Of a stretch of DNA of 64,000 bases, positions 27,976 to 64,000 are shown piece by piece. A program made the position numbers and the translations under genes. Under the pieces are notes generated by a model. The model saw nothing but the letters and a program-made list of their open reading frames with translations. It was not told the origin of the DNA and did not search any database. Position 1 is the first letter of the stretch. Every line of letters begins with the position of its first letter. This stretch comes from a virus, in the IMG/VR virus record IMGVR_UViG_3300050166_000025, positions 87,112 to 151,111 of that record. One strand, 5' to 3'.

Positions 27976-28260
27976 TTAATCCCCAGCCATTATTACAAGC
28001 TCCTTTAGTTTCATTAAGGTATCACACTTCTCATACTCTTCCAGTTCTACAAAGTATTCGATTAATAATTGAATAAACTTTGAGCGTTGGCCTAAGCCAT
28101 GTGGAATTTCAATAGTGTTCTTACCGTCTTGAAACGCAATAAACCTGTTAACAGTTTTCGTAAAATTTCTTGTAATGATAGAATAGCTTGAACGCATCAG
28201 CTGGTCTTTTTCATCACCTGTTAAATAACCCATTCTGTTTGTTTGAATGTTTTTTATCAT
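27976..28260 (-). CDS. Small protein with C-terminal UVR-like EEYEKC motif
   Basis: Protein of 94 residues. The C-terminal 30 residues, LIEYFVELEEYEKCDTLMKL, match those of three other small proteins here (28553, 29854, 56787). The pattern resembles the UVR helix-turn-helix of UvrB, ClpC and McsA. It lies 19 bases upstream of phoH. A role as adaptor in protein-protein contacts is inferred from the motif. Confidence 0.62.
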   Translation of the reverse strand: MIKNIQTNRMGYLTGDEKDQLMRSSYSIITRNFTKTVNRFIAFQDGKNTIEIPHGLGQRSKFIQLLIEYFVELEEYEKCDTLMKLKELVIMAGD

Positions 28261-28370
28261 GTTGAATTTTCAACAGTTTATATATTTTAACCAGTAATGA
28301 ATCGGTGTGGTTTGGACAATTTTAATAATGTAATATATTTTAGGATGTGAGCCCTGTATCACCGAAGTGT

Positions 28371-28556
28371 TTATTGATTGGTATTCTTCTGTTGCTTATA
28401 TTCAGCTTTTTGTTTTTGTAATCGCTTCATCGCACTCTTTTTCTTGAACTCTTTTTTCTCTTGTAAGGCTTGCATCTGCTTGATTTTGATAGTTTTACGC
28501 TTAAACTCCTTTAGAGCCTTCTCAATGTTGCCGTCCTTTACATTAATAATAATCAT
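28371..28556 (-). CDS. Small Lys-rich coiled-coil protein
   Basis: Protein of 61 residues with very high Lys and Gln content (KRKTIKIKQMQALQEKKEFKKKS), a single long helix or coiled coil. Its ATG overlaps the stop of the preceding UVR-like gene (ATGA). Possibly nucleic-acid binding. No family recognised. Confidence 0.5.
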   Translation of the reverse strand: MIIINVKDGNIEKALKEFKRKTIKIKQMQALQEKKEFKKKSAMKRLQKQKAEYKQQKNTNQ

Positions 28557-28807
28557 AACTCTTGAATTATTTTTTTAAGATTGTGACATTTTTCATACTC
28601 TTCTAAGCCTTCGAACCACTTAACCATTAATTCTAAGGCCTCTATCTTGTTTTCTTTGGTGGCGCTGGATTCTGAGAGCGCTCCCATCTTCTTCGTCATC
28701 AAGGCCCGATATGTTAGTTCCATTATCTGACCCTTGTTCAAGGTTAGAAGTTGATTAAAGAAGGAAGTGTGGTCGTCACTCGAGAGTATGCCGTCGTAGT
28801 CAATCAA
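28553..28807 (-). CDS. Small protein with C-terminal UVR-like EEYEKC motif
   Basis: Protein of 84 residues ending MVKWFEGLEEYEKCHNLKKIIQEL, a paralogue of the C-termini at 27976, 29854 and 56787. The start appears to be TTG overlapping the DnaJ stop codon (TTGA), the tight coupling used elsewhere in this operon; the next ATG would remove 28 residues. Function unknown; adaptor role inferred. Confidence 0.55.
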   Translation of the reverse strand: MIDYDGILSSDDHTSFFNQLLTLNKGQIMELTYRALMTKKMGALSESSATKENKIEALELMVKWFEGLEEYEKCHNLKKIIQEL

Positions 28808-29619
28808 TTTTCAAGTTGCTTTATTCTATTTATCAACTCAAGTTGATCGGCATTTATACCCGCAAAACTCGTAAGTAATTTTATTAAGATGGCTCCAGCT
28901 TCATTAGTGCCCATGATAGGCAAGCCTTTACCGGCTAACCTGAGAACTTTTCCAGGATTTGAGCCCGGTGGAACGGTGAAGGCTAATTTACCCGAAGGAG
29001 TGTCAATCTCTGTTTTAGTGCCAAGTATCATGTCATACCATCTCAGGCTCACCTCCATCCAAACATCATCGCCCTGAATAATCCAGTTCACGTTGGGTAA
29101 GATAGTGACTTGCACTAATAGGTCACCTCTGGGAGCCTCTCTATTCCATGGGTTCCAGGAGCCTCTGCCTCTAACCCTTAAAGTCATGCCCTCCTTTGCT
29201 CCCTTTGGAATCTCCACTGGCACCTGATCGATTCTGGTGTTAAGAGTTGTCTTGAAGCCGTTATAGATGTGATGTATATCTAATTGAACTGTGACACGCT
29301 GGTCCTGCCCTTTTCTCGAAGAGTCTGCCCGGTTGCCAAAGTGCACGTTGAAATCGTTGGACCAGTTTGTATTGCCCTGATTCCATTGCTGAAACAGGTT
29401 TTCCCAGTCCATTTCACCACCCTTTGACCTATCATACTGTCTACGCTTCTCCTCATCGCCAAGAGTTTGATAAGCCTCCTGTACGGTTTGAAAACGCTGC
29501 TTCGTATCAGTGTCCGGGTTCTTATCAGGATGCAATTCCTTAGCCAGTTTTCTGTACGCTTGTTTAATCTCCTCTTGACTAGCTGTCTCGCTTACTTTTA
29601 ATGTTTGATAATAGCTCAT
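28804..29619 (-). CDS. DnaJ/CbpA-like co-chaperone
   Basis: Protein of 271 residues. J-domain at 1-70 with HPD at 30-32 (SYYQTLKVSETASQEEIKQ). A short Gly/Asn/Trp-rich linker follows and then two C-terminal substrate-binding beta domains (VQLDIHHIYNGFKTTLNTR, KVLRLAGKGLPIMG). The Cys-rich zinc-finger of DnaJ is missing, which makes it CbpA-like. It would stimulate the host DnaK for folding or assembly. Its start overlaps the small gene at 29579 by 41 bases. Confidence 0.92.
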   Translation of the reverse strand: MSYYQTLKVSETASQEEIKQAYRKLAKELHPDKNPDTDTKQRFQTVQEAYQTLGDEEKRRQYDRSKGGEMDWENLFQQWNQGNTNWSNDFNVHFGNRADSSRKGQDQRVTVQLDIHHIYNGFKTTLNTRIDQVPVEIPKGAKEGMTLRVRGRGSWNPWNREAPRGDLLVQVTILPNVNWIIQGDDVWMEVSLRWYDMILGTKTEIDTPSGKLAFTVPPGSNPGKVLRLAGKGLPIMGTNEAGAILIKLLTSFAGINADQLELINRIKQLEN

Positions 29620-29755
29620 CCTTGCGAGTTTTAATAGCCTCCTTAATTTTCTCTACTCCGCCTGTCAATAAGTCTGCCTTCTGTTGACGCTCCATTGAGT
29701 CAGCAATTCGTTTTAATTGTTTTGCGATTTCGGCTAGTGATTTTGAATCATCCAT
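29579..29755 (-). CDS. Small helical protein of 58 residues
   Basis: Open frame from ATG at 29755 to TAG at 29579, encoding MDDSKSLAEIAKQLKRIAD and on to KSKRDS, 58 residues, entirely helical and charged. It fills the gap between the UVR-like gene transcript and dnaJ, overlapping dnaJ by 41 bases. The even amphipathic pattern supports a real short gene, but no family is known. Confidence 0.5.
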   Translation of the reverse strand: MDDSKSLAEIAKQLKRIADSMERQQKADLLTGGVEKIKEAIKTRKDELLSNIKSKRDS

Positions 29756-29810
29756 AATAAGATATTATTTTAATCTATTCTATATATTTTTCACATTTTG
29801 TTTATAGATG

Positions 29811-29834
29811 AAAAAAGGGAGCCAGGGCTCCCTT
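29811..29834 (-). terminator. Intrinsic terminator
   Basis: AAGGGAGCC-AG-GGCTCCCTT hairpin with a T run on the minus strand. It closes the short transcript of the gene at 29854. Confidence 0.88.
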
Positions 29835-29853
29835 AATCAATCAAACAATTAAA

Positions 29854-30180
29854 CTATTTTATCTCAATGTCTTCCAACTCTGGCAGATACTTGTTTAAGA
29901 CTGCACACTTCTCATACTCTTCTCGCTCAACAAAATACTGAATCATATAACAGATAGTGCTCTTTAGTTGAGACAGGACCTTATTGTCGATTGAAATAAG
30001 TCTTAAGCCTTGAATGTCGATGCCTTTGCGCTCGATCGCTTCATAGTTGGTTCTGACATATCGGTCAATCATTCTATCGTAGATTTGTTGTGACATCTCT
30101 TCAGTTGTTTCATCGGGTTGAAAGTCATCTTCGGAGCCAAAAAAATCTTCATCTTCGTCATTAATGTCGTCAAAAAACAT
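29854..30180 (-). CDS. Acidic small protein with UVR-like EEYEKC motif
   Basis: Protein of 108 residues. The first 30 residues are very acidic (MFFDDINDEDEDFFGSEDDF), and the C-terminus YFVEREEYEKCAVLNKYLPEL is the shared UVR-like motif. It is a single-gene unit between promoter copy 4 and a terminator, so it is expressed early. An early adaptor or DNA-mimic-like role can be imagined; there is no direct evidence. Confidence 0.6.
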   Translation of the reverse strand: MFFDDINDEDEDFFGSEDDFQPDETTEEMSQQIYDRMIDRYVRTNYEAIERKGIDIQGLRLISIDNKVLSQLKSTICYMIQYFVEREEYEKCAVLNKYLPELEDIEIK

Positions 30181-30200
30181 AGTAAGTATCTTTAAGTTTA

Positions 30201-51390: not shown

Positions 51391-54300
51391 TTACGATTCA
51401 ACTTGGAATGTAATTACAACTTCGGCTGTTCCAGATGTTGGAGCACCTGTATTAGCACCAGTGATAGCGTTAAAAGTTACTTGTGTAAATCCAGCGGAAG
51501 GTTGTAAGCATGAGAATGTTGAAGCTGTTTTACCAATGAATGCAGTTGTAAAAATGTTAGCCGCATTGATTGCGTGACAAGCAGGATTTAAGACTCTTTT
51601 TCCAAGCGGATGCTGTATTGACAAGTTATTAACTGAAAGTGAATTGCTCCAGCCTGAGATCCATGAAGTTCCATCGTGTAAGATTTGACCTCCTGGACCA
51701 GTTGCACCTAAGATAGGAGCAGCTCCATTTACACCACCACCTGTCATCGCAACTCTAATTGAGTAATTAACTAAGGCTCCAGATCCAGTGATACTCGCGC
51801 TACCAGCAGGGCCGGCAGGACCTTGAGGACCCATAGGACCAGTATTACCCTGTGGACCAGTGATTGAAACACCATTGATACCGCTTGAACCAGAGCTACC
51901 TGAAGTTCCGCTTACACCAGAACTACCTGAAGTTCCTGATGAACCACTTACGCCTGAGGTTCCGCTTGTTCCACTGATACCTGAAGTTCCATTTTGTCCA
52001 TTAGCTCCTGAAGTTCCAGAAGTTCCATTTTGACCATTAGCTCCTGAAGTTCCAGAAGTTCCATTAATACCCGAGGTTCCGTTTACACCTGAAGTTCCAT
52101 TAACTCCCGAGGTTCCGTTTACACCTGAAGTTCCATTCTGACCGTTGACACCTGATGTTCCATTTATGCCAGAAGTTCCGCTTAAGCCAGAGCTACCAGA
52201 GGTTCCATTGATACCCGAAGTTCCACTTGCGCCAGAACTACCTGAAGTTCCATTAACGCCAGAGGTTCCGTTTACACCAGAAGTTCCATTTACACCAGAA
52301 GTTCCGCTTTGTCCGTTAGCTCCAGAGGTTCCGCTTGAACCGCTTGTACCCGTAGTACCTGAAGAACCATTAGTTCCACTTACACCAGAGCTACCAGAAG
52401 TTCCATTTTGTCCGTTAAGACCAGAGCTACCAGAAGTTCCGTTTTGTCCGTTAAGACCAGAGCTACCAGAAGTTCCGTTTTGCCCGTTAACACCGGATGT
52501 TCCGTTTTGACCATTTACACCAGATGTTCCATCTTGTCCGCTAAGACCAGAAGTTCCAGAAGAACCATTAGTTCCGCTTACACCTGAAGTTCCATTTTGT
52601 CCGTTGACACCAGAAGTTCCGCTTACGCCTGAAGTTCCATTTATGCCAGAGGTTCCGTTTTGTCCATCAAGACCTGAAGTTCCAGATTGACCATCTAACC
52701 CCGACGTTCCGTTTTGTCCATTTACACCAGAAGTTCCGTTTTGTCCATTTACACCAGAAGTTCCGTTTTGTCCGTTAGCTCCAGAAGTACCAGTTAAACC
52801 GCTTGTGCCTGAAACACCAGAAGTACCGTCTGTTCCGCTTACACCAGAGCTACCAGAAGTTCCGTTTATTCCACTTGAACCCGAAGTTCCATTTTGACCG
52901 TTAATGCCAGATGTTCCGTTCTGACCATCAAGACCAGAAGTTCCATTTTGTCCATTGACACCAGAAGTTCCAGATTGACCATCTAAACCAGATGTTCCAT
53001 TTTGTCCATCGATACCTGAAGTACCACTTACACCAGAAGAACCGTTAGTTCCACTTATTCCACTTGAACCAGAAGTTCCATCTTGACCATTAAGACCAGA
53101 TGTTCCGTTCTGTCCATCAATGCCTGAAGTTCCAGATTGACCATCAATACCGGAAGTTCCGTTAACACCAGATGTTCCATCTTGTCCATTAACTCCAGAA
53201 GTTCCATCGACACCAGAAGTACCAGTTAAACCGCTTGTTCCGCTTACGCCAGAAGAACCGTTAGTTCCACTTACGCCAGAAGAACCAGAAGTTCCATTTT
53301 GTCCATCAATGCCTGAAGTTCCATTTTGTCCATCAAGACCAGAAGTTCCGTTAACACCTGAGGTTCCATCAACGCCAGAAGTTCCAGATTGGCCGTCTAT
53401 ACCAGAAGTACCAGTTAAACCGCTTGTGCCTGAAACACCAGAAGTACCGTCTGTTCCGCTTACACCAGAAGTTCCAGAGGTTCCATCTTGTCCATCAAGA
53501 CCACTGGTTCCATTAATGCCCGAAGTACCATCGATACCAGAAGTTCCAGATTGACCGTCGATACCAGAAGTTCCGCTAACTCCGTCAATACCAGAGGTTC
53601 CATGCTGTCCATTAAGACCAGAGGTTCCATTGATACCGGAAGTTCCGTTAACACCTGAGGTTCCATTGACACCCGAAGTTCCATTAACTCCAGAGGTTCC
53701 AGCCGTACCTGAAGTACCGCTTACGCCGGAAGAGCTGTTGTTTCCATTTCCAGCGCCGTAAGCATCTAAGTTATATGCAATAACTTGTCCTACTTTCCAG
53801 TTGGGGAATGTAATTACCGGAGACTCGGAATGATCTTCGTGTAAAACATCAACTATTAAACCATCGGTGTCATTATCGTTTCCGTTACCGAATGCGATGT
53901 CCTGTCTTGACCAACCAATGATCTTGTATATTGCATAATGATTAGGCTGATTTACGTTAACAACAGTAATGATACCGCTAGCCTGATCATTTGTAATTCT
54001 ATTGATTAAGAAGTTTTCTAACTGAGTGTTTCTCGCGTTATTAACGTCTATATTTCTAAATCTAATTTGAGTAACGTTCGTTGCTAACTCAGAGTTAAAC
54101 GTTGCTGCTCCTGCCTTTGAAGGTGTAGCTCCAGCAATATCTTCAACCTGAAATCTATTAATTGGAAAAGATCCAGTTCCAAGCGGATACTGTGCAGTGC
54201 TACCAGAACCAGAAGTTCCAGAAGTTCCACCTGATGCAGCTAAGATACTTCCAATTTTTAATTTAGGAAGAATGTATGTTCTTGGAGTTGGATAGTAATC

Positions 54301-54642
54301 GTTGAAAGTAAGAGTTACTTCAGCAAATAGATCTCCAGTAAAAATATTAGAGCTCTGCTCAGAAGTTAAAGTAAAGAATACGTATCCTGGTTGTGAATTT
54401 GCAGCGGTTCCTAATTGTAAAGCTGAAGTTGAACCAAAGATTTGTGGATATGCATATTGATAGACTTTTCTACCTAATGAATCGTATAAAGCAACTGTAA
54501 CCGAATCAGCTGTTGTTAAGTCCCATTGATTATTTAAGTAATCTTTGAAAATTATTAAAGTAATATCTTGAGTCGTTCCCTGTGTGACAGTGTTCAATGA
54601 ATCAATATAAGCTATTACGTTGTCCTGTGATACGTATGGCAT
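51391..54642 (-). CDS. Giant collagen-like fibre of 1083 residues
   Basis: Residues 1-130 form a beta domain resembling N-terminal baseplate-attachment domains ([16 protein letters not shown]...). Residues 310-940 are long runs of [13 protein letters not shown] and [10 protein letters not shown] units, with Asn, Gln and Asp in the X/Y positions, unlike the Ser/Thr-only tracts of the other two fibres. A short [19 protein letters not shown] stretch follows, then a C-terminal 130-residue beta domain. No S74 signature is seen. This is the longest collagen-like tract in the window. It probably acts as a long host-contacting fibre. Confidence 0.82.
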
Positions 54643-54693: not shown

Positions 54694-55380
54694 TTATCCG
54701 TGCTTAAGTTTATGAAATAGAGAAAATTTAGCGATTGGAAATGCACACTCATCAAGCGGCATTGCACTTTCAAAATCGCATCTAATAACAGCCTTATCCG
54801 GTTCTGCGATTCCTATCTGAGTTACATAGTCAGTTAGATTCTTCATATTGAAATCCAAAGTTTCTACGTAAGTTAATTGAAACTTCTTCCAGTTATCGTT
54901 CATTGAAGAAGGCTTATTGAAGCTGTAAATTATTAAGTTGTTATTGTAATCTATTATTATGAAATAGCCTGAGTCAAACACTAATTTCTTTTCAGGAATA
55001 TATGTTAAGTGAATCTTTTTCTCGTGATCTCTCCATCTTTCTCTTAATGTCTTATATAACTTTTCAAATAGATACACTGCGTCACTTGCAATTTTAACCA
55101 TGTCCTCCATTTCTCCAGAGTTCTCTGGATACTCATACTCTAACTGCATGTTATCTATATCAATTCCAACAAGAACTTTCATCTTGTCATCCAATAAGTC
55201 TTTTTGATGTTGAAATCTGTAAAGATTTTCTAAGTGAATCTCTATCTCTTCCAGAACTGGAGCTAAGATATTTTGCTTTATTAGAGATTCATACTTGTTT
55301 ATGGCTGCTAAAAGCTTATAACGCTTGAACTCATAATCGTGAGGTTCAGAATCAAGCCAATTTTTGTTTAGAATATCCAT
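54694..55380 (-). CDS. Hypothetical helical protein
   Basis: Protein of 228 residues. The first 130 are mostly helical with many Leu and Glu (YKLLAAINKYESLIKQNILAPVLEEIEIHLENLY), the rest is beta-rich. No known motif. It is a single gene after the ClpP-operon terminator. TAAATA lies 4 bases before ATG, the late-type start, so a virion or late protein is more likely than a Clp partner. Confidence 0.55.
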   Translation of the reverse strand: MDILNKNWLDSEPHDYEFKRYKLLAAINKYESLIKQNILAPVLEEIEIHLENLYRFQHQKDLLDDKMKVLVGIDIDNMQLEYEYPENSGEMEDMVKIASDAVYLFEKLYKTLRERWRDHEKKIHLTYIPEKKLVFDSGYFIIIDYNNNLIIYSFNKPSSMNDNWKKFQLTYVETLDFNMKNLTDYVTQIGIAEPDKAVIRCDFESAMPLDECAFPIAKFSLFHKLKHG

Positions 55381-55542: not shown

Positions 55543-55857
55543 TTACTTCTTTGCTAATTTCTTTCCTGTCTTAAATAAGTTCAGGTCTTTTCCTCTATAT
55601 TCTGCATCATCACATGATAATCCCCATTGTAGAATAAACCAGCTCACCTCGTTCTCTGCCATCTTTGAGTTTAGACCTAACACCTTCATAACTCTTTTCT
55701 TTGCGTACTCTGCAAATTCTCTCTCCTTTTCGTAAGTTGTCTTATATTGCATATACCAGTTAGGTACATCTATGACATCTTCGAAGGTTTTGCCGAACGG
55801 TTCTAACTGTTTATTGATAAGTTCAACGAACAATTCTTTCTGCTTTTCTCTTCTCAT
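55543..55857 (-). CDS. Small hypothetical protein, end of Clp transcript
   Basis: Protein of 104 residues starting MRREKQKELFVELINKQLEPFGKTF, mostly helical with two Cys/Trp-containing segments. It is 1 base from the gene at 55859. No family recognised. Confidence 0.55.
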   Translation of the reverse strand: MRREKQKELFVELINKQLEPFGKTFEDVIDVPNWYMQYKTTYEKEREFAEYAKKRVMKVLGLNSKMAENEVSWFILQWGLSCDDAEYRGKDLNLFKTGKKLAKK

Positions 55858-55858
55858 T

Positions 55859-56089
55859 TTAATTCTGAATTAATTGAATTTTCTTAAGTACATCACTATC
55901 AGTAAGCTTTATAAAATCTTCAGACGATAAGCTAACTTCGATTATATTATCTTGTAATTTATATGCTTTTGGTGATGTGTAATATTGAACTACAGTATCT
56001 TCACTCGGGTAAAGATTTGCATGCAATTCATTTATTAATTTATTTAATTGCATTAAATCTTCAGTATCAATATAAATGTGAACTCTCAT
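55859..56089 (-). CDS. Small hypothetical protein downstream of clpP
   Basis: Protein of 76 residues starting MRVHIYIDTEDLMQLNKLINELHANLYP. It overlaps the clpP stop codon by one base, so it is translated with ClpP. No family recognised; a Clp adaptor or unrelated small protein are both possible. Confidence 0.55.
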   Translation of the reverse strand: MRVHIYIDTEDLMQLNKLINELHANLYPSEDTVVQYYTSPKAYKLQDNIIEVSLSSEDFIKLTDSDVLKKIQLIQN

Positions 56090-56790
56090 TATTTTTTAGA
56101 TTTAGTAGGTTTAGACTTAGCTCCAACGATTGAGTCAATGATACCATATTTCTTTGCTGCTTCAGCATCTAACCAAAAATCACGAGTTGCATCTTGCATT
56201 ACTTGATCGGCTGATTTGCCGCAGTATTCTCCTAACAACTTAAATAATATCTTATTAACTTTTTGCCATTCTGCCCAGTCAATTTGAGCGTCTTGGATGT
56301 TTCCACTAAATCCACCAGATGATTGATGTAACATGGTAGTGCTGAAACGGAGTGAGTGTCTTTTCCCTTTAGTTCCTGCGCCAAGAAGCACAGAACCCAT
56401 TGAAGCGGCCATACCGGTGTTGACTGTGATGATGTCAGAATTGATGTAATCCATAACATCGACCATTGAAAGTCCTGACTTTACACTTCCACCCGGAGAG
56501 TCAATATGCATTTTAATGTCGTCTTGATTAATAGAGTCAAGATACATTAACTGAGCCTGTACTACAGTTGACATGTTATCGTTTACTGGACCTGCAACCC
56601 ATAGTAATCTGTCTGCCATTAATCTTGAGAAAATGTCCATCTGAACAGCTCTCATTTCACGCTCTTCTAAAATATATGGTGTTAAAGAAGAATGAACCTG
56701 CTTATTATAATAATCTAAACCCGTAGAAGGCAACCCAAATTCTGATTGAGCAAAGCGCTGAAACTCGGTTTCTTTTGGAAAGTAATTCAT
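56089..56790 (-). CDS. clpP: ATP-dependent Clp protease proteolytic subunit (ClpP)
   Basis: Protein of 233 residues. The catalytic triad is present: GMAASMGSVLL with Ser130, TMLHQSSGG with His155, and ATRDFWLDAEAA with Asp204, in the order and spacing of ClpP. The substrate-lid segment HIDSPGGSVKSGLSM is typical. Its C-terminus ends in Lys/Ser. Together with the ClpC-like ATPase 1.2 kb upstream on the same strand it can form a phage ClpCP protease. The stop overlaps the start of the next small gene. Confidence 0.95.
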   Translation of the reverse strand: MNYFPKETEFQRFAQSEFGLPSTGLDYYNKQVHSSLTPYILEEREMRAVQMDIFSRLMADRLLWVAGPVNDNMSTVVQAQLMYLDSINQDDIKMHIDSPGGSVKSGLSMVDVMDYINSDIITVNTGMAASMGSVLLGAGTKGKRHSLRFSTTMLHQSSGGFSGNIQDAQIDWAEWQKVNKILFKLLGEYCGKSADQVMQDATRDFWLDAEAAKKYGIIDSIVGAKSKPTKSKK

Positions 56791-57107
56791 ATTGTTTCTT
56801 TTAGTTGTTTAATTAATTCGCACGTTTCATATTCTTCAATTTTTGCAAAATATTCAAGTGCTTTGTCTAGTGATTTGAGCCAACCTTCTTTTTCAAGAAC
56901 GAATGTGCTACGATGTAATTTATTGTTAGTGTCTTGGATAATATAACAAAGTATTGATTCTGTTTCAACACCTTCTATTCTATTCATTACATATTGCACG
57001 ATTCTTCTAAAAAATAAATCGGGCTCGTCCATGTATTTGGTGATGTCGTTTCCATCTACATCGGGTTTAATAGTGAACGTTGGAATTAGGCTCATTCTTG
57101 GTATCAT
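56787..57107 (-). CDS. Small UVR-like EEYETC-motif protein between clpP and thyA-like gene
   Basis: Protein of 106 residues. The C-terminus LEYFAKIEEYETCELIKQL is the fourth member of the UVR-like small family (others at 27976, 28553, 29854). It overlaps clpP downstream by 4 bases and the thymidylate-synthase-family gene upstream by 4 bases. In other bacteria UVR-domain proteins (McsA) help ClpC; its placement next to clpP makes an adaptor role plausible. Confidence 0.62.
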   Translation of the reverse strand: MIPRMSLIPTFTIKPDVDGNDITKYMDEPDLFFRRIVQYVMNRIEGVETESILCYIIQDTNNKLHRSTFVLEKEGWLKSLDKALEYFAKIEEYETCELIKQLKETI

Positions 57108-57982
57108 ACTAATTCAGCAAAGGTTCTGATATTAAGATAATCCGATAATAACTTTTCGTATTCTGTCTGCTTTGCTCCAGCTTCTACTAATTCATTTACT
57201 CTATCAATATATTGTGAACCTGCTAAACTTAACGTAGGTAATAACTTATTATCTTTTTCGATATAGAAGAAGAATGGTTTTAATAGATGCATCTTGTACT
57301 GTGTCGAGTCTTGACCATTTTGCTTGATGCTATCTGCTAAAACAAAGTGATGCTCGTAGAAGTGAATATTGTCTGCGAAGTGAGTGTATGTTCCTAACTT
57401 AAGTGCAGGATACGTATCTTTTAGCCACAAGTACATGTGTTGATGAACGAATGCAAAGAAAGGAGCGTCGAAGGTTAAACCGTAAAAGATGTCGTTTGAC
57501 CGCATCTGAACCTTCATGTTCAATTTGTTATCTCTAACAAAAAAGTTAAGATACATTGTGCACACAAAATCTTTATTGCCTTCAAACTGAAACTTTGGTT
57601 GATTAAGAAAAGCAATAGCTTGTCGAGTATTAATGTCTTGCTTTAGAGAAGTTAAGCACCATGCTAACTGATCGCCGAATAAGAGACTACCATAGTTTGA
57701 ATTGATTTCGTTAGTTCCTGGATTTGTAATGTTTTTCCAGAATCCAGAAAACTTATTAATATAATCTATGTCGTTGTCTCTATTAAGATACCACGCTAAC
57801 TCGCCTGCAAAATATTTATGGTTGAACTTACGATCTTTGAAATTTGCGAATGGTCGAGTTGGATCAACTTGAATTTGACCATAGATTAATTCCTTAACCC
57901 TTAAGTCTCTTGGTTGAGAGATAGAACCTTTCGATTCTATCTCTTTAATTATATTTATGAACGATTCAGAAAAGTTATTCAT
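57104..57982 (-). CDS. Thymidylate synthase-family enzyme, probable dCMP hydroxymethylase
   Basis: Protein of 292 residues with the fold of thymidylate synthase. Residues: FSGFWKNI near 78-85, NSNYGSLLF near 95, INTRQAIAFL (Arg120), FVCTMYLNFF with Cys141 (catalytic), MRSND with Arg161 and Asp164, then YGLTFD where Asp172 takes the position of the Asn that selects dUMP in thymidylate synthase, and IHFYEHH with His207 and Tyr209. An Asp at that place is the mark of dCMP hydroxymethylase (T4 gp42). The enzyme may thus make 5-hydroxymethyl-dCMP. Thymidylate synthase activity is the alternative. Confidence 0.82.
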   Translation of the reverse strand: MNNFSESFINIIKEIESKGSISQPRDLRVKELIYGQIQVDPTRPFANFKDRKFNHKYFAGELAWYLNRDNDIDYINKFSGFWKNITNPGTNEINSNYGSLLFGDQLAWCLTSLKQDINTRQAIAFLNQPKFQFEGNKDFVCTMYLNFFVRDNKLNMKVQMRSNDIFYGLTFDAPFFAFVHQHMYLWLKDTYPALKLGTYTHFADNIHFYEHHFVLADSIKQNGQDSTQYKMHLLKPFFFYIEKDNKLLPTLSLAGSQYIDRVNELVEAGAKQTEYEKLLSDYLNIRTFAELV

Positions 57983-58036
57983 GTATTATGTTATTACGAG
58001 AATATTAAATTATTTTACTACTTTAATATTATACTC

Positions 58037-60049
58037 CTATTTTAAGGAAAGTTTATCTTCTCCTTTAATGTGATTAATAGTGTAAACCTTATCTCCTTGA
58101 GTCATGACTCCATCGATGATTGCGTCAGCTAATAAGTCTTCAACGAAATTTTGAACAGCTCTCTTTAAGGGTCTTGCTCCGTAAGCTGGATCATAACCTT
58201 CTTTAACTAAGAGTAACTTTGCTTGCTTAGTAAATTTCAAATTGTATCCTTGTTCATACATTCTTACCAAGACCTCGCCTAATTCGATGTCTACGATTTT
58301 TAAGATGTCCTCTTCGCTTAACTGATCAAAGATAATGATGTCATCTAAACGATTTAAGAATTCTGGAGCAAACTTGTTCTTTAATTCTTTTCTAACTATC
58401 GCTTCTACTTTAGCCTTTTGCATTACGCTACCTTCAGTCGAGTCGAATCCAATTCCAGTGCCAAAGTCTGCGACTTTACGAGCACCGATATTCGAAGTCA
58501 TGATGATAATTGTATTTGTGAAATCGACAGTTCTTCCTAAAGAATCCGTTAATCTGCCATCATCTAAAACTTGTAATAATGTGTTGAAAATATCAGGGTG
58601 CGCTTTTTCAATCTCGTCAAATAGGATAATTGAGTAGGGCTTGCGGCGAACTGCTTCGGTTAATTGACCACCACCCTCATAACCAACATATCCTGGAGGT
58701 GGGCCGATTAAACGAGATACGTTGAATTTTTCTTGATATTCGGACATATCAATTCTTACCATCGACTCTTCAGAACCAAAGTAGTGCTTCGCGAGTGCTT
58801 TAACAGTTTCAGTTTTACCTACGCCGGTAGGGCCTAAGAATACAAATGAACCGATTGGCTTGTCTGCTGATGAGACACCTGCTCTTGAGCGTCTAATTAC
58901 TCTACATAACGCGTCAACTGCCGAGTCCTGTCCAATGATAAGCTTTTTCAACTCACCTGCCATTCCTGCGATCATTCTATTCTCATCGCCCGTTAATCGC
59001 GTAACTGGAATACCTGTAATGTCTGCGATTGTTGCGGCTACATCCTCTTCCGTGACATGCGTTCTATTATTCTTAATGTTCGATTCCCACTCTGCTAATT
59101 TAGTTTCAATCTCCTCTTTCTTCTTCATCTCTAAATCACGGAAATTTGCAGCTTGTTCGTAATCCTGTTTGTTTACTGCATCTAACTTCGCCTCCTTTAA
59201 TTCTTCGGCCTCGGTTTCCATCTTCTTCATGAAAGTTGGAACTTTAACCTCTTGCATGTGAATTTTAGAACCAGCTTCATCCATTACGTCAATAGCTTTA
59301 TCAGGCAACTCACGCTGGGTGATATATCTCTCGCTTAATTTAACACATGCTTCTAAAGCCTCATCAGTATATTGAACAGAGTGATGATCTTCATACTGTC
59401 CTTTAATTCTCTTTAAGATCTCAATCGTATCTTCGATTGAAGGCGGATCAATAAAGACCTCTTGAAATCTACGTGTTAATGCTCCATCATCTTCAATATG
59501 TTCTCTATACTCATCTAAAGTTGTAGCTCCAATACATTGAACTTGACCACGGGCTAATGCAGGCTTTAAGATATTAGAAGCATCTAAACTACCGCTGACG
59601 CCGCCGGCTCCAACTAGAGTGTGAATCTCATCGATGAAGATGATAATCTGCTTATTCTCTTTGAGTTCTTCTACGATATTCTTCATTCGCTCTTCAAACT
59701 CTCCTCGGTATTTAGTGCCCGCTACAATGTTATTAATATTTAGTGAGACAATTCTTTTGTTGAAAAGAGTTCTAGCAACTTTCTTATCGTTAATTCTTTG
59801 TGCAATCGCTTCGATGATAGCCGTCTTACCAACACCTGGATCTCCAAGTATGATTGGGTTATTCTTCTTTCTACGTGAAAGAATTTGACAAATGCGGTAT
59901 ACTTCCTTTTCTCTACCGATGATTGGATCAAGTTTACCTTCAGCTGCCATCTGTGTAAGATCTTCTCCGAACTGATCAATCATTGGTGTTGACTTGGGTT
60001 TTTTATTGCCCTTATCTCTTTTATCCTCGTTATCTGGATATGTAGCCAT
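58037..60049 (-). CDS. clpC: ClpC-like AAA+ unfoldase without N-domain
   Basis: Protein of 670 residues with two AAA+ modules. First: GDPGVGKT at 69-76 (Walker A) and IIFIDEIHTL near 137-144 (Walker B). A middle coiled region near 285-310 holds a UVR motif (KQDYEQAANFRDLEM). Second: GPTGVGKT at 406-413, ILFDEIEKAH near 475-484, and the ClpP-docking loop IGF at 533-535. The usual 140-residue N-domain for adaptors is absent, so substrate choice must come from other parts. It pairs with ClpP at 56089. Confidence 0.95.
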   Translation of the reverse strand: MATYPDNEDKRDKGNKKPKSTPMIDQFGEDLTQMAAEGKLDPIIGREKEVYRICQILSRRKKNNPIILGDPGVGKTAIIEAIAQRINDKKVARTLFNKRIVSLNINNIVAGTKYRGEFEERMKNIVEELKENKQIIIFIDEIHTLVGAGGVSGSLDASNILKPALARGQVQCIGATTLDEYREHIEDDGALTRRFQEVFIDPPSIEDTIEILKRIKGQYEDHHSVQYTDEALEACVKLSERYITQRELPDKAIDVMDEAGSKIHMQEVKVPTFMKKMETEAEELKEAKLDAVNKQDYEQAANFRDLEMKKKEEIETKLAEWESNIKNNRTHVTEEDVAATIADITGIPVTRLTGDENRMIAGMAGELKKLIIGQDSAVDALCRVIRRSRAGVSSADKPIGSFVFLGPTGVGKTETVKALAKHYFGSEESMVRIDMSEYQEKFNVSRLIGPPPGYVGYEGGGQLTEAVRRKPYSIILFDEIEKAHPDIFNTLLQVLDDGRLTDSLGRTVDFTNTIIIMTSNIGARKVADFGTGIGFDSTEGSVMQKAKVEAIVRKELKNKFAPEFLNRLDDIIIFDQLSEEDILKIVDIELGEVLVRMYEQGYNLKFTKQAKLLLVKEGYDPAYGARPLKRAVQNFVEDLLADAIIDGVMTQGDKVYTINHIKGEDKLSLK

Positions 60050-60066: not shown

Positions 60067-60525
60067 TTATATTTTAGAAAGGTTATCTGCAGCGTGAACT
60101 GCCGGTAATAAATCTGGTTTAATTCTCGGTTTAATACCCAGTGACTGAACATATCCTTTAGCGGCTGCAACTAGTTTATTAGATGCATAGGCCTCGTCAT
60201 CATTTAAGTCTAGGTCTATATTATGTATATTTATTCCGTTTTCTCGTAGATACATTGCCAGTTCCACTGAAAACTCAACCTCTTTCCACAATCTGGTCCA
60301 TAGATCGTTAATTCTTTTAACCTTTTCCTTATTAAAAAGAACGTGGCAACCAGTATCGCCAATATGAATGACCAATGTTGTAACGTAGGTTGTGAATTCT
60401 CCTTTGTTATGTGAATCACAGCCAACATAGATACGCAAGTTGTTAAATTTGTGATCTAAGATATATTGCTTAACATACTCAGCAATTTCTATGGTATTGT
60501 TATCCATTAATTTTTTAAATTTCAT
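60067..60525 (-). CDS. RNase H-like protein, DUF458/YkuK family
   Basis: Protein of 152 residues. RIYVGCDSHNKGEFTTYVTTLVI provides the first RNase H-fold Asp, and LDLNDDEAYASNKLVAAAKGYVQSLG the later acidic residues, typical of the DUF458 family. Families of this fold are predicted nucleases or nucleic-acid binding proteins. It ends 17 bases before the clpC start and follows the LOG gene by 3 bases, so it is within the Clp transcript. Function in phages not known. Confidence 0.75.
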   Translation of the reverse strand: MKFKKLMDNNTIEIAEYVKQYILDHKFNNLRIYVGCDSHNKGEFTTYVTTLVIHIGDTGCHVLFNKEKVKRINDLWTRLWKEVEFSVELAMYLRENGINIHNIDLDLNDDEAYASNKLVAAAKGYVQSLGIKPRIKPDLLPAVHAADNLSKI

Positions 60526-60528
60526 ACC

Positions 60529-61200
60529 TTAGAAGTTTGTAATGTTATGTTGTCTATATTTTTCGTGATATTCACATATTTTTGAAACGGCCTCAGCTCC
60601 AGTATCGACTATTCTAAACAAGTCCAGATCTTTTTCACTCATTTTACCTTCGGCCAATACTGTTTTCTTAATCCATTCAATTAAGCCGCTCCAATATTCA
60701 ACTCCAACCAGTACGATTGGAAATTTAGGAGCATGACCAGTCTGTGCAAGTGTTAGGGCTTCAAATAATTCATCTAAAGTACCTAAACCTCCTGGAAAAA
60801 CAATAAATCCTTGTGAATATTTTAAGAATGCAACTTTTCTAGTGAAAAAATAGCGGCATGTGATACCTAATTGAACTCCAGGGTTCATTCCGGCTTCAAA
60901 GGGCAGTTCAATGCCTACCCCGATTGACTTTTTTCCTAAATCTACTGCCTTTGCTCCTTTATTAGCCGCTTCCATAATACCCGGACCACCTCCTGTAATG
61001 ACATTGAACCCTGATTGTGCCAATAAGCCTCCGGCAATGTATGCATGCGTATACATTGGATCATCTACGCTGGTTCTTGCAGAGCCAAAGACCGAAATAC
61101 TGGCATCTAAATCAGATAACTCATCGAAGGCTCTTGTAAATTCACTTTGAATGCGTAAAATTTGCCAAGCGTCCGTTGATTTTTGTATATGTTTGTCCAT
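60529..61200 (-). CDS. LOG-family nucleotide phosphoribohydrolase
   Basis: Protein of 223 residues from the ATG at 61200 (MDKHIQKSTDAW); the longer frame runs into the terminator and is rejected. Signatures: SVFGSARTSVDDPMY, VITGGGPGIMEAANKGA and FIVFPGGLGTLDELFEALTLAQTG, the PGGxGTxxE motif of LOG (cytokinin-activating) enzymes that remove ribose 5-phosphate from nucleoside monophosphates. In a phage it may alter nucleotide pools or destroy nucleotide-based signals of host defence. The second role is speculative. Confidence 0.88.
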   Translation of the reverse strand: MDKHIQKSTDAWQILRIQSEFTRAFDELSDLDASISVFGSARTSVDDPMYTHAYIAGGLLAQSGFNVITGGGPGIMEAANKGAKAVDLGKKSIGVGIELPFEAGMNPGVQLGITCRYFFTRKVAFLKYSQGFIVFPGGLGTLDELFEALTLAQTGHAPKFPIVLVGVEYWSGLIEWIKKTVLAEGKMSEKDLDLFRIVDTGAEAVSKICEYHEKYRQHNITNF

Positions 61201-61256
61201 TAAGGATTTATTAAAAGGTTTTAGATATTCTATACGTAAAGCTAAACTTGTTTCAA

Positions 61257-61285
61257 TAAAAAATGGGACCCATGTGAGTCCCATC
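61257..61285 (-). terminator. Intrinsic terminator
   Basis: ATGGGAC-TCACATGG-GTCCCAT hairpin followed by TTTTTTATTG on the minus strand, downstream of the gene at 61321 and upstream of the LOG gene. Confidence 0.85.
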
Positions 61286-62083: not shown

Positions 62084-63080
62084 TGTGCTTTGATTTTTAT
62101 GTTATGATTATTATACTCTGTTATTACTATTAGTTTCTTTTTGTTGGGGAAAAATTGGGGAAATTTTTAGAAAGCCAACACCACCCTATATCCACATTAG
62201 TTTTATAACCTTTTCACTAATATCAAGGGCCCTGCTCAACCCTGGGCCCCTGGAGCACTTTAAGCACTCTAATACTCCAAGGTCCCCTTAAAATCCATAC
62301 CGTGGTCAAAAGGTTATTATACTCTGTTAATCCCTGGGCGTGTGCACAAATTAGCCTCTGGTCTCCAAGCGGTTTGAAGGCTCACTGCCTCTTTACTAGT
62401 ACTGTGATACTCAAATCTAGTGTGAGTGCTCAAATCTCTGTTAGCTCTCTAATACTAAGATAGAAGCTCCATAACCTTTATTAGTTTTATAAATTACTAT
62501 AAGAACTCTAAGTGCTTAGACAGCGCTCCCGCTCTGTGCTCGCCGCCGATAAGATGATGGCGTAGCCATCCATCCTTCGAGGACTAGCGGCCTTCAGGTA
62601 CTCCGGGTTTCTTGGGTAGTGAGGGCTTCAATGGCCCGGAGCGCTTTAAGGCTAAGAGTGTGGGTACCCCCTCCCTAGTCTCCTTCGAGCCACGGAACCA
62701 AATCTTATACTCTGGGGTCGGGAAAAGGTTTCACTCTGGGTGAAGTATTTCATACTCTTTTTCTCAGAGGGCCCAGAGGGCTCCGAGGTGATCAGTGACC
62801 TTGAGGGCTACTGGTTTCCCGGGTCCCGGTTTTTGCGTACCGGGCTACTCCGGCTTTTGTAACGTGTCAATAGGTCTCAGAGTGCTACTCGGCTATTATT
62901 ATATTATGCGGGGGTAGGAGTGGCTGCCCGCCCCGGGCCCGGGTTTTTGAGTCTCGGGTACTTAAGCGGTGGTTGGAGCGCTTAGAGAGCTTAGAGGGCT
63001 CGGTGACCTGGAGGAGTAGCCATTTTCACGGGCCTGGTTGTGCATGCCTTTCGGGCAATTGCGTTTGCTATACTGCTAAT

Positions 63081-63193
63081 TATTGGCGCATGCCCTCAAG
63101 CCTCTCACCATCAGAGCCCCCGTGTATTGGCGCCTCTGGCCTCTAAGCCATGCCCCCGGCCACCAGGCCCAGAGGCCTCCGTGTATTAGGCGC
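63081..63193. repeat. Three TATT(A)GGCGC elements with GC-rich spacers
   Basis: TATTGGCGC at 63081-63089 and 63125-63133, TATTAGGCGC at 63184-63193. The last two are each preceded by CCGTG and followed by GC-rich sequence with GAGGCC or CTCTGGCC words. The spacing (44 and 59 bases) is not constant. Iteron-like, but unproven. Confidence 0.4.
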
Positions 63194-63264
63194 ACTCAGA
63201 GGCCAGATGACCCAGAGGCCCAGAGGCCTATAGCGAAAATAAATGGCTAAATGTTTCCTTTTGT

Positions 63265-63287
63265 CGGGAATTATAGTTATATTTGCC
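63265..63287 (+). promoter_or_regulatory. Early promoter motif copy 6
   Basis: CGG-GAATTATAG-TTATATTTGCC on the plus strand, 34 bases before the ATG at 63322. Here the box ends TTTGCC, closest to the Bacteroidota TAnnTTTG. It shares TAAATGGCTAAAT about 15-25 bases upstream with copy 8. Confidence 0.78.
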
Positions 63288-63321
63288 TATCTTCTATTAT
63301 AACTCTTTAACTGATACTACT

Positions 63322-63606
63322 ATGGCTAAAAAGAAACCTTTCTACTTTAACTGGCTAGATGAGAAAGGCCTCCCTACCGGTTGGAATTATGTCTGGGCTA
63401 AGGATAAGATAAAGGCTATTAAGGCGGCCAGGGCTAAGGAGCAGCTAGCTAAGGATTTTGAGTATCAGGTTAGATTAGAGGATGGCTCTATAGCTACCAG
63501 GGTGGGCCGGTTCTCTGGCCTACGGGTTAATATCGGCTCTATCCGGCAAATCACTCTGGATGAATTGATGGAGCTGGAGCGGTTGGCTAATCAGATGTGT
63601 AACTAG
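63322..63606 (+). CDS. Small plus-strand protein
   Basis: Protein of 94 residues from the ATG at 63322 (MAKKKPFYFNWLDEKGLPTGWNYVW); a TTG 39 bases upstream lies in the promoter and is rejected. The sequence is basic at the start with a mixed alpha/beta fold, and codons are richer in G and C than in the other genes. It is the first of the plus-strand early genes. No family recognised. Confidence 0.65.
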   Translation: MAKKKPFYFNWLDEKGLPTGWNYVWAKDKIKAIKAARAKEQLAKDFEYQVRLEDGSIATRVGRFSGLRVNIGSIRQITLDELMELERLANQMCN

Positions 63607-63649
63607 TTGACGGCACAGGTAGCCCCGGTAGGGGGCCCTGGAGCCTTCC

Positions 63650-63715
63650 CTGGAGGGCACCTGGGCAAAGCCCCTCAGGTGCCCTGGAGACCTAATAGAA
63701 AATAAAGCCCTCCAG
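63650..63715 (+). terminator. GC-rich terminator joined to the next promoter
   Basis: Outer arms CTGGAGGGC (63650-63658) and GCCCTCCAG (63707-63715), inner arms AGGGCACCTG (63654-63663) and CAGGTGCCCT (63676-63685), followed by ATTTTTATTT. The two stems overlap and could be alternative. The T run flows directly into promoter copy 7, as in the duplicated modules on the minus strand. Confidence 0.65.
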
Positions 63716-63727
63716 ATTTTTATTTGT

Positions 63728-63750
63728 CGCGTATTATGCTTATATTTACC
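63728..63750 (+). promoter_or_regulatory. Early promoter motif copy 7
   Basis: CGC-GTATTATGC-TTATATTTACC on the plus strand. Downstream, the first ATG (63772) is followed by a stop after three codons, so the transcript may be a short RNA or a very small gene. Confidence 0.68.
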
Positions 63751-63756
63751 TATAAC

Positions 63757-63880
63757 AATAAAAAATAGCCCATGACCAATTAGCGCCACGTGCAATCTAG
63801 ACCTTAAATGCGTCACCAAGGGCCGGCCTGTTCTTTTACGGGGTGGGAGAGTGGACTCCAGAGCGCTTTTTATTTTTTTA
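63757..63880 (+). ncRNA. Possible short transcript without clear coding
   Basis: From the expected start after promoter copy 7 to a T-rich tract at 63867-63879 after GAGCGC there are about 120 bases. The only frame is a 28-codon one from 63808 with no recognisable features. A short noncoding RNA or tiny peptide gene is possible; low confidence. Confidence 0.3.
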
Positions 63881-63947
63881 AAATGCCAAAGTAGGTAATA
63901 AAATAGTGCCAATATAGGAAATTAAATGGCTAAATATTTTTTTTATT

Positions 63948-63970
63948 CGGGAATTATTGTTAGATTTACC
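63948..63970 (+). promoter_or_regulatory. Early promoter motif copy 8
   Basis: CGG-GAATTATTG-TTAGATTTACC on the plus strand, 23 bases before the ATG at 63994. Upstream it repeats TAAATGGCTAAAT of copy 6. Confidence 0.75.
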
Positions 63971-63993
63971 TATACCAATTAAACAAGCACAAT

Positions 63994-64000
63994 ATGTCTT
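63994..64000 (+). CDS. Start of a plus-strand gene cut by the window end
   Basis: Only ATGTCTT is present. It is called because it stands 23 bases after promoter copy 8, the same arrangement as the other early genes. Nothing else can be said. Confidence 0.5.

Follow-up and report, generated by a model that had tools for sequence, protein, structure and literature searches.

The right-hand 64,000 nucleotides (87112–151111; here called the window) of a 151,111-bp viral record, IMG/VR IMGVR_UViG_3300050166_000025, encode on the minus strand both enzymes of a ClpC–ClpP protease. The virus is a T4-like myovirus, encoding a T4-type major capsid protein, portal, tail sheath, terminase and gp21-type S77 head-maturation protease. 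The clpC–clpP cassette occupies window positions 56089–60049 (−), and the open reading frames (ORFs) at these coordinates are real and conserved; between the two enzyme genes lie a gene for a 106-residue protein, S106, and a thymidylate-synthase-family gene (thy) that the original prediction, an earlier reading of this DNA, did not mention. Here we describe a ClpC that has lost its N-terminal adaptor domain and kept its M-domain brake, encoded with a ClpP that is altered at its docking pocket and pore gate, and we propose that the two form a protease under phage control. Phage Clp proteases are already known; it is the regulatory configuration that is new here. The cassette comprises the following features.

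58037–60049, minus strand: clpC, an N-domain-less, two-module AAA+ unfoldase of 670 residues (Pfam AAA, AAA_lid_9, AAA_2 and ClpB_D2-small)
59981–60049, minus strand: hydrophilic N-terminal ~23 residues of ClpC, matching the bacterial ClpC linker between the N-domain and D1
59822–59845, minus strand: ClpC D1 Walker A motif GDPGVGKT, residues 69–76
59135–59167, minus strand: ClpC M-domain tip QDYEQAANFRD, residues 295–305
58811–58834, minus strand: ClpC D2 Walker A motif GPTGVGKT, residues 406–413 (residue alignment)
58445–58453, minus strand: ClpC ClpP-docking tripeptide IGF, residues 533–535
57104–57982, minus strand: thymidylate-synthase-family protein, 292 residues (PF00303, E = 1e-17)
56787–57107, minus strand: S106, a phage-specific protein of 106 residues found in 43 distinct cassettes, with a 4-nt overlap with thy and with clpP
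56793–56891, minus strand: C-terminal helical hairpin of S106, residues 73–105, a YFxxxEEYEKC-type module (AlphaFold2 model and phage-wide motif)
56089–56790, minus strand: clpP, 233 residues, with a Bacteroidota-type N-terminal propeptide (PF00574, E = 2.2e-54; tree)
56500–56601, minus strand: ClpP residues 64–97, with the phage-specific pocket and gate residues W64, A66, T75, H95 and D97 (Escherichia coli positions 30, 32, 41, 62 and 64)
56401–56403, minus strand: ClpP catalytic Ser130
56326–56328, minus strand: ClpP catalytic His155
56179–56181, minus strand: ClpP catalytic Asp204

Compared with solved structures, the unfoldase is closest to ClpC rather than to ClpA or ClpB, the best match being Staphylococcus aureus ClpC (759 bits), and the tree places it among the ClpCs of Bacteroidota. 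The two Walker motifs and IGF loop that had been read in it are present within two complete ATPase modules: Walker A and B motifs in both, pore loops, arginine fingers and the [IV]GF loop were all found and are conserved across the clade, with K75 of the first Walker A motif kept in 64 of 64 N-domain-less phage ClpCs. The absence of the N-domain, also predicted, is borne out by the alignment, which covers S. aureus residues 149–799 and begins in the linker that follows this domain, leaving residues 1–148 without a counterpart. Because the first ~23 residues of the phage protein align to the linker between the N-domain and D1, the deletion ends at a domain border. Clp_N is not among the protein's 25 best Pfam families, and no Clp_N encoded in trans was found anywhere in the 151-kb record or in 12 related N-domain-less records; the control search detected Clp_N above the cut-off in two phages (G031 and G035), weakly in another (G024), and in Bacteroidota genomes. 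It is through the N-domain of ClpC that regulators of the MecA, McsB and phosphoarginine type work.

ClpL forms head-to-head ring dimers that likewise use an M-domain aromatic, and the phage ClpC could be imagined as a similar disaggregase or chaperone acting mainly without ClpP. It retains an M-domain with the aromatic, and its N-domain-less form resembles ΔN ring dimers. The docking loop, however, is kept in 64 N-domain-less viral ClpCs (GF in 64/64, preceded by I or V in 59), and clpC is genetically linked to clpP, leaving this role improbable.

At the M-domain tip, which gives the sole Pfam UVR match in the record, Y297, R304 and D305 correspond to S. aureus F436, R443 and D444. These brake positions do not vary within the window clade, and the arginine and aspartate are found in all N-domain-less phage rows. 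Positions that anchor the N-domain drift more, the D356 equivalent being acidic in 28 of 63 sequences without the domain and 54 of 82 with it (P = 0.012, not corrected for kinship). In sequence, the phage protein is a naturally occurring ΔN-ClpC whose brake is intact. The engineered S. aureus equivalent, with its M-domain intact, shows raised ATPase activity, ClpP binding and head-to-head rods, and degrades neither FITC-casein nor GFP-SsrA (PMC12583610; PMC5699869).

The original prediction held that the missing N-domain would free a working protease from host control. Taken to its limit, this describes a constitutively active ClpCP that shreds host proteins, an idea helped by the findings that the N-domain steadies the resting state of ClpC and that S. 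aureus ClpC carrying both ΔN and F436A is active and highly toxic (PMC12583610). Phage ClpP, in addition, is naturally changed at the equivalents of S. aureus Y63 and N42, whose alanine mutants open the gate; phage histidine and threonine nevertheless differ from alanine, which makes their effect on the gate a guess. With the brake residues invariant and S. aureus ΔN-ClpC alone leaving both model substrates undegraded, we consider unregulated activity unlikely. What stands of the claim is a complete, probably functional ClpCP; freedom from control, as it was worded, is too strong. The invariance of the brake, and the failure of S. aureus ΔN-ClpC to degrade substrates while its brake is intact, make it probable that the phage ClpCP does not run freely but is phage-controlled and requires an activator of its own. 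Most simply, the brake would still be in use and would be released by something other than an N-domain adaptor. Adaptor control through the M-domain alone is already known from M. tuberculosis ClpS/ClpC1 (PMC6274998).

ClpP carries the predicted Ser-His-Asp triad (S130, H155 and D204), together with the oxyanion glycine G101, in 37 of 37 phage ClpPs. In the S. aureus enzyme, M31, G33, N42, Y63 and N65 make up the published docking/gate switch, and the Y63A and Y63A/N42A variants are open-gate and hyperactive (PMC9035409). All five switch residues are changed in each of the 37 phage ClpPs (F30W, G32A, N41T, Y62H and N64D in E. coli numbering), such that the canonical pocket and gate residues Tyr62, Asn41 and Asn64 are replaced by H, T and D throughout. 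Relative to 24 cellular ClpPs, 28 of 97 conserved positions are altered and fixed in the phage set; the hypergeometric chance that these include all five switch residues is 0.0015, a value made less impressive by Tyr62 having been noticed first. Further changes include L48M in the docking pocket and the handle region (131–142), and the salt-bridge network of R22, E26 and E51 is mostly kept. The huge phage LR745206 has the switch pattern too; LR756502, LR756504 and Lak retain the cellular residues, and the RaK2 and JNE01 ClpPs retain Tyr62. The AlphaFold2 monomer model reached a predicted local distance difference test (pLDDT) score of 48, its alignment being too shallow and similar, and no conclusion on the ring or docking was drawn from it. 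The change of the five switch residues had not been noticed before. With pocket and gate rebuilt, the phage ClpP is probably tuned to its own ClpC or confined to it as a partner, and its gate may open more readily.

The same residues bear on whether the machine is mixed, with phage ClpC feeding host ClpP, phage ClpP serving host ClpX or ClpC, or both. The context of the IGF loop, FGxG[IV]GF, is of the Bacteroidota type, and many phages, such as RaK2 and Lak, have ClpP alone. Set against this are the rewritten docking pocket (Y62H, L48M and others in 37/37), the altered handle and the holding of ClpC and ClpP in one cassette, and we regard mixed assembly as possible but doubtful.

The gene order ClpC–Thy–S106–ClpP is found again in some 43 distinct viral contigs. 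Every searched ClpP-bearing viral record of at least 140 kb also has ClpC, and 10 of 12 ClpC-bearing viral records of at least 100 kb have ClpP, in a sample that is not random, its records having been selected through the loci that brought them in. Judged by length, complete viral ClpC ORFs without the N-domain number 78 and those with it 14, and all 66 cellular relatives counted have it. In the ClpC tree, all viral sequences of the window's kind fall into a single clade (support 94) within Bacteroidota (99); the window clade itself (22 rows, 100) entirely lacks the N-domain, and an N-domain-bearing clade stands next to a second clade without it. The tree fits both repeated loss and a single loss followed by regain. 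The phage ClpPs group together (100/100) on a long stem inside a Bacteroidota group (100/100) of the ClpP tree. Both Clp enzymes were probably captured from a Bacteroidota host. In one contig (G017, locus L129), clpC and thy are each split into two overlapping ORFs, through a frameshift or sequencing error.

Maturation of phage heads had been offered as one possible use of the protease, and in other phages heads are indeed matured by proteases of the ClpP fold, a label that the PHROG matches bear. This phage, however, has a gp21-type S77 prohead protease adjoining its capsid gene. Its clpP is some 114 kb distant, next to tail-fibre and nucleotide genes, and the encoded ClpP descends from the housekeeping ClpP of Bacteroidota rather than from head proteases. 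We rejected this use on the strength of the dedicated protease, and consider a role in head maturation or virion assembly very unlikely. The S77 domain lies in the N-terminal part of a 620-residue ORF outside the window (28324–30186 (−) of the record), much longer than T4 gp21 and perhaps a protease fused to scaffold.

S106 had been described as a small UVR-like protein encoded between the two enzymes; the gene is there, and the UVR identity is not statistically supported. AlphaFold2 predicts an alpha-beta-beta-alpha-alpha fold (pLDDT 82) that has no match in the PDB and matches only uncharacterized phage proteins in BFVD, and tblastn in annotated phages gave no convincing homologue. S106 has no Pfam match to UVR (PF02151), which falls on the ClpC M-domain instead. 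In hhalign tests with 60 whole-protein shuffles, 100 hairpin shuffles and 6 decoy families, UVR came top of all comparisons but was not significant for S106 itself (P = 0.02–0.04; P = 0.0012 for the wider hairpin set), and homology was rejected, leaving a likeness at the level of the motif only. The YFxxxEEYEKC hairpin is phage-wide, and all 85 of the small ORFs with it that were found in IMG/VR carry it at the C-terminus. Its motif (EEYEKC or EEYETC) ends at least four different small proteins in the window (27976–28260, 28553–28807, 29854–30180 and 56787–57107 (−)). That the hairpin is a ClpC-specific tag was likewise rejected: ClpC was found in 1 of 15 hairpin-bearing records, many of which are fragments.

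We propose, with a probability of roughly 0.6, that the phage produces an ATP-dependent ClpCP of its own, which has lost the adaptor domain, kept the brake and come under the control of a phage factor. ClpC, in which the motor residues are present, would thread substrates through two pore-loop rings into ClpP, with its catalytic triad, docking by the IGF loop. With the N-domain gone, host regulators of the MecA, McsB or phosphoarginine type would be unable to recruit substrates to ClpC or to activate it. By default the machine is probably held in a repressed, head-to-head form like that of S. aureus ΔN-ClpC, and a phage factor or substrate acting on the M-domain would lift the repression. The likely role is in host takeover or proteostasis during infection. 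Several points weigh against this proposal: the IGF loop is host-like and compatible with docking to host ClpP; binding of S106 to ClpC is without sequence support; S106 is kept beside thy in 43 of 43 cassettes but beside clpP in 40 of 43; 14 of the 15 hairpin-bearing phage records, some of them fragments, have no detected ClpC; and other phage lineages (L056 and L132) have ClpC adjoining ClpP without S106.

S106, at least as tightly tied to Thy as to ClpP, is a long-shot candidate for the factor that releases the brake. The chances are evenly balanced that it is instead a partner of the thy-family enzyme, or unrelated to both, rather than a Clp adaptor: the adjacency counts point that way, as does the presence of the hairpin on many unrelated small phage proteins, whereas in most cassettes S106 runs into the start codon of clpP, and UVR-type hairpins are known in Clp adaptors (McsA), both of which point to a link with Clp. 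A speculative extension of our proposal, which we think unlikely in full, is a self-contained orthogonal ClpCP: a phage-only activator, S106 or some other protein of the cassette, would switch the N-domain-less ClpC through its M-domain, and host unfoldases would be unable to use the rebuilt ClpP.

Bacterial ClpC–ClpP systems (S. aureus, Bacillus subtilis and Bacteroidota) likewise have two AAA+ modules, a short M-domain with an aromatic/R/D tip, an IGF-type loop and a Ser-His-Asp ClpP with an N-terminal loop; the phage pair differs in lacking the N-domain, in its replaced pocket and gate residues, and in its place in a phage genome alongside S106 and a thy-family gene. The deletion in engineered S. 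aureus ΔN-ClpC (PMC12583610, PMC5699869) stops at the same linker and leaves the M-domain intact, but the phage form is natural, ancient in its clade and paired with a modified ClpP. The S. aureus gate mutants Y63A and Y63A/N42A (PMC9035409) alter two of the same positions (E. coli 62 and 41), where the phage has histidine and threonine and three further switch positions changed. Bacteroidetes phages with a bS21 gene (Chen et al. 2022, PMC9723584) are also T4-like with a Bacteroidota host, and the present phage resembles them in encoding bS21; the paper touches on a phage Clp protease only in passing, and that passage describes neither a missing N-domain nor the M-domain, S106 or the switch residues of ClpP. 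Iyer et al. 2021 (PMC7824862) reported phage-encoded Clp parts of jumbo phages (ClpP, ClpA/ClpX and ClpS) separately and proposed host targeting; the isolate ClpPs checked (Lak, RaK2 and JNE01) retain Tyr62. SPO1 Gp53 (PMC6873191), which serves host ClpC as a phage-encoded adaptor, also gives a phage control of ClpCP, by redirecting the host machine rather than supplying its own.

The cassette belongs to a minus-strand run of eight genes, in the order SLOG, RNase H-like, clpC, thy-family, S106, clpP, S76 and S104, separated by at most 54 nt or overlapping by 4 nt. The flanking genes are as follows.

60529–61284, minus strand: SLOG/LOG-family protein (PF03641, E = 3e-32), upstream in the clpC run, gap 3 nt
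60067–60525, minus strand: RNase H-like protein (PF04308, E = 3e-23), upstream in the clpC run, gap 17 nt
55859–56089, minus strand: S76, a small ORF overlapping the clpP stop (8 loci), kept in near relatives only
55543–55857, minus strand: S104, a conserved gene downstream of clpP (61 loci)
54694–55380, minus strand: S228, a conserved gene downstream of clpP (61 loci)

The thy-family protein has the catalytic cysteine, and all relatives checked have aspartate at the ThyA N177 position, which suggests a dCMP-type enzyme and modified cytosine in the phage DNA. Elsewhere in the window, a bS21 ribosomal protein gene (28392–28547 (−); PF01165, E = 1.9e-9) is flanked by two hairpin-tailed proteins, and a 1083-residue collagen-like protein with SGTSG/NGTSG repeats (51391–54642 (−)) is one of several big, repeat-rich, tail-fibre-like genes. 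Across 62400–64000, at the contig end, GC content climbs from about 0.36–0.41 to 0.53–0.55 and long ORFs vanish, possibly marking a different origin or a chimeric end.

How control of ClpC is shared between its N-domain and M-domain is a current question, approached through engineered mutants. In the present lineage a ClpC that naturally lacks the N-domain and has a conserved brake is widespread, and the ClpPs that go with it are naturally changed at pore-gating positions. The phage pair could show whether the M-domain alone regulates ClpC and could give an orthogonal ClpCP. As what is probably a separate, virus-controlled degradation machine of a T4-like Bacteroidota virus, it also bears on whether phages degrade chosen host proteins with a machine of their own.

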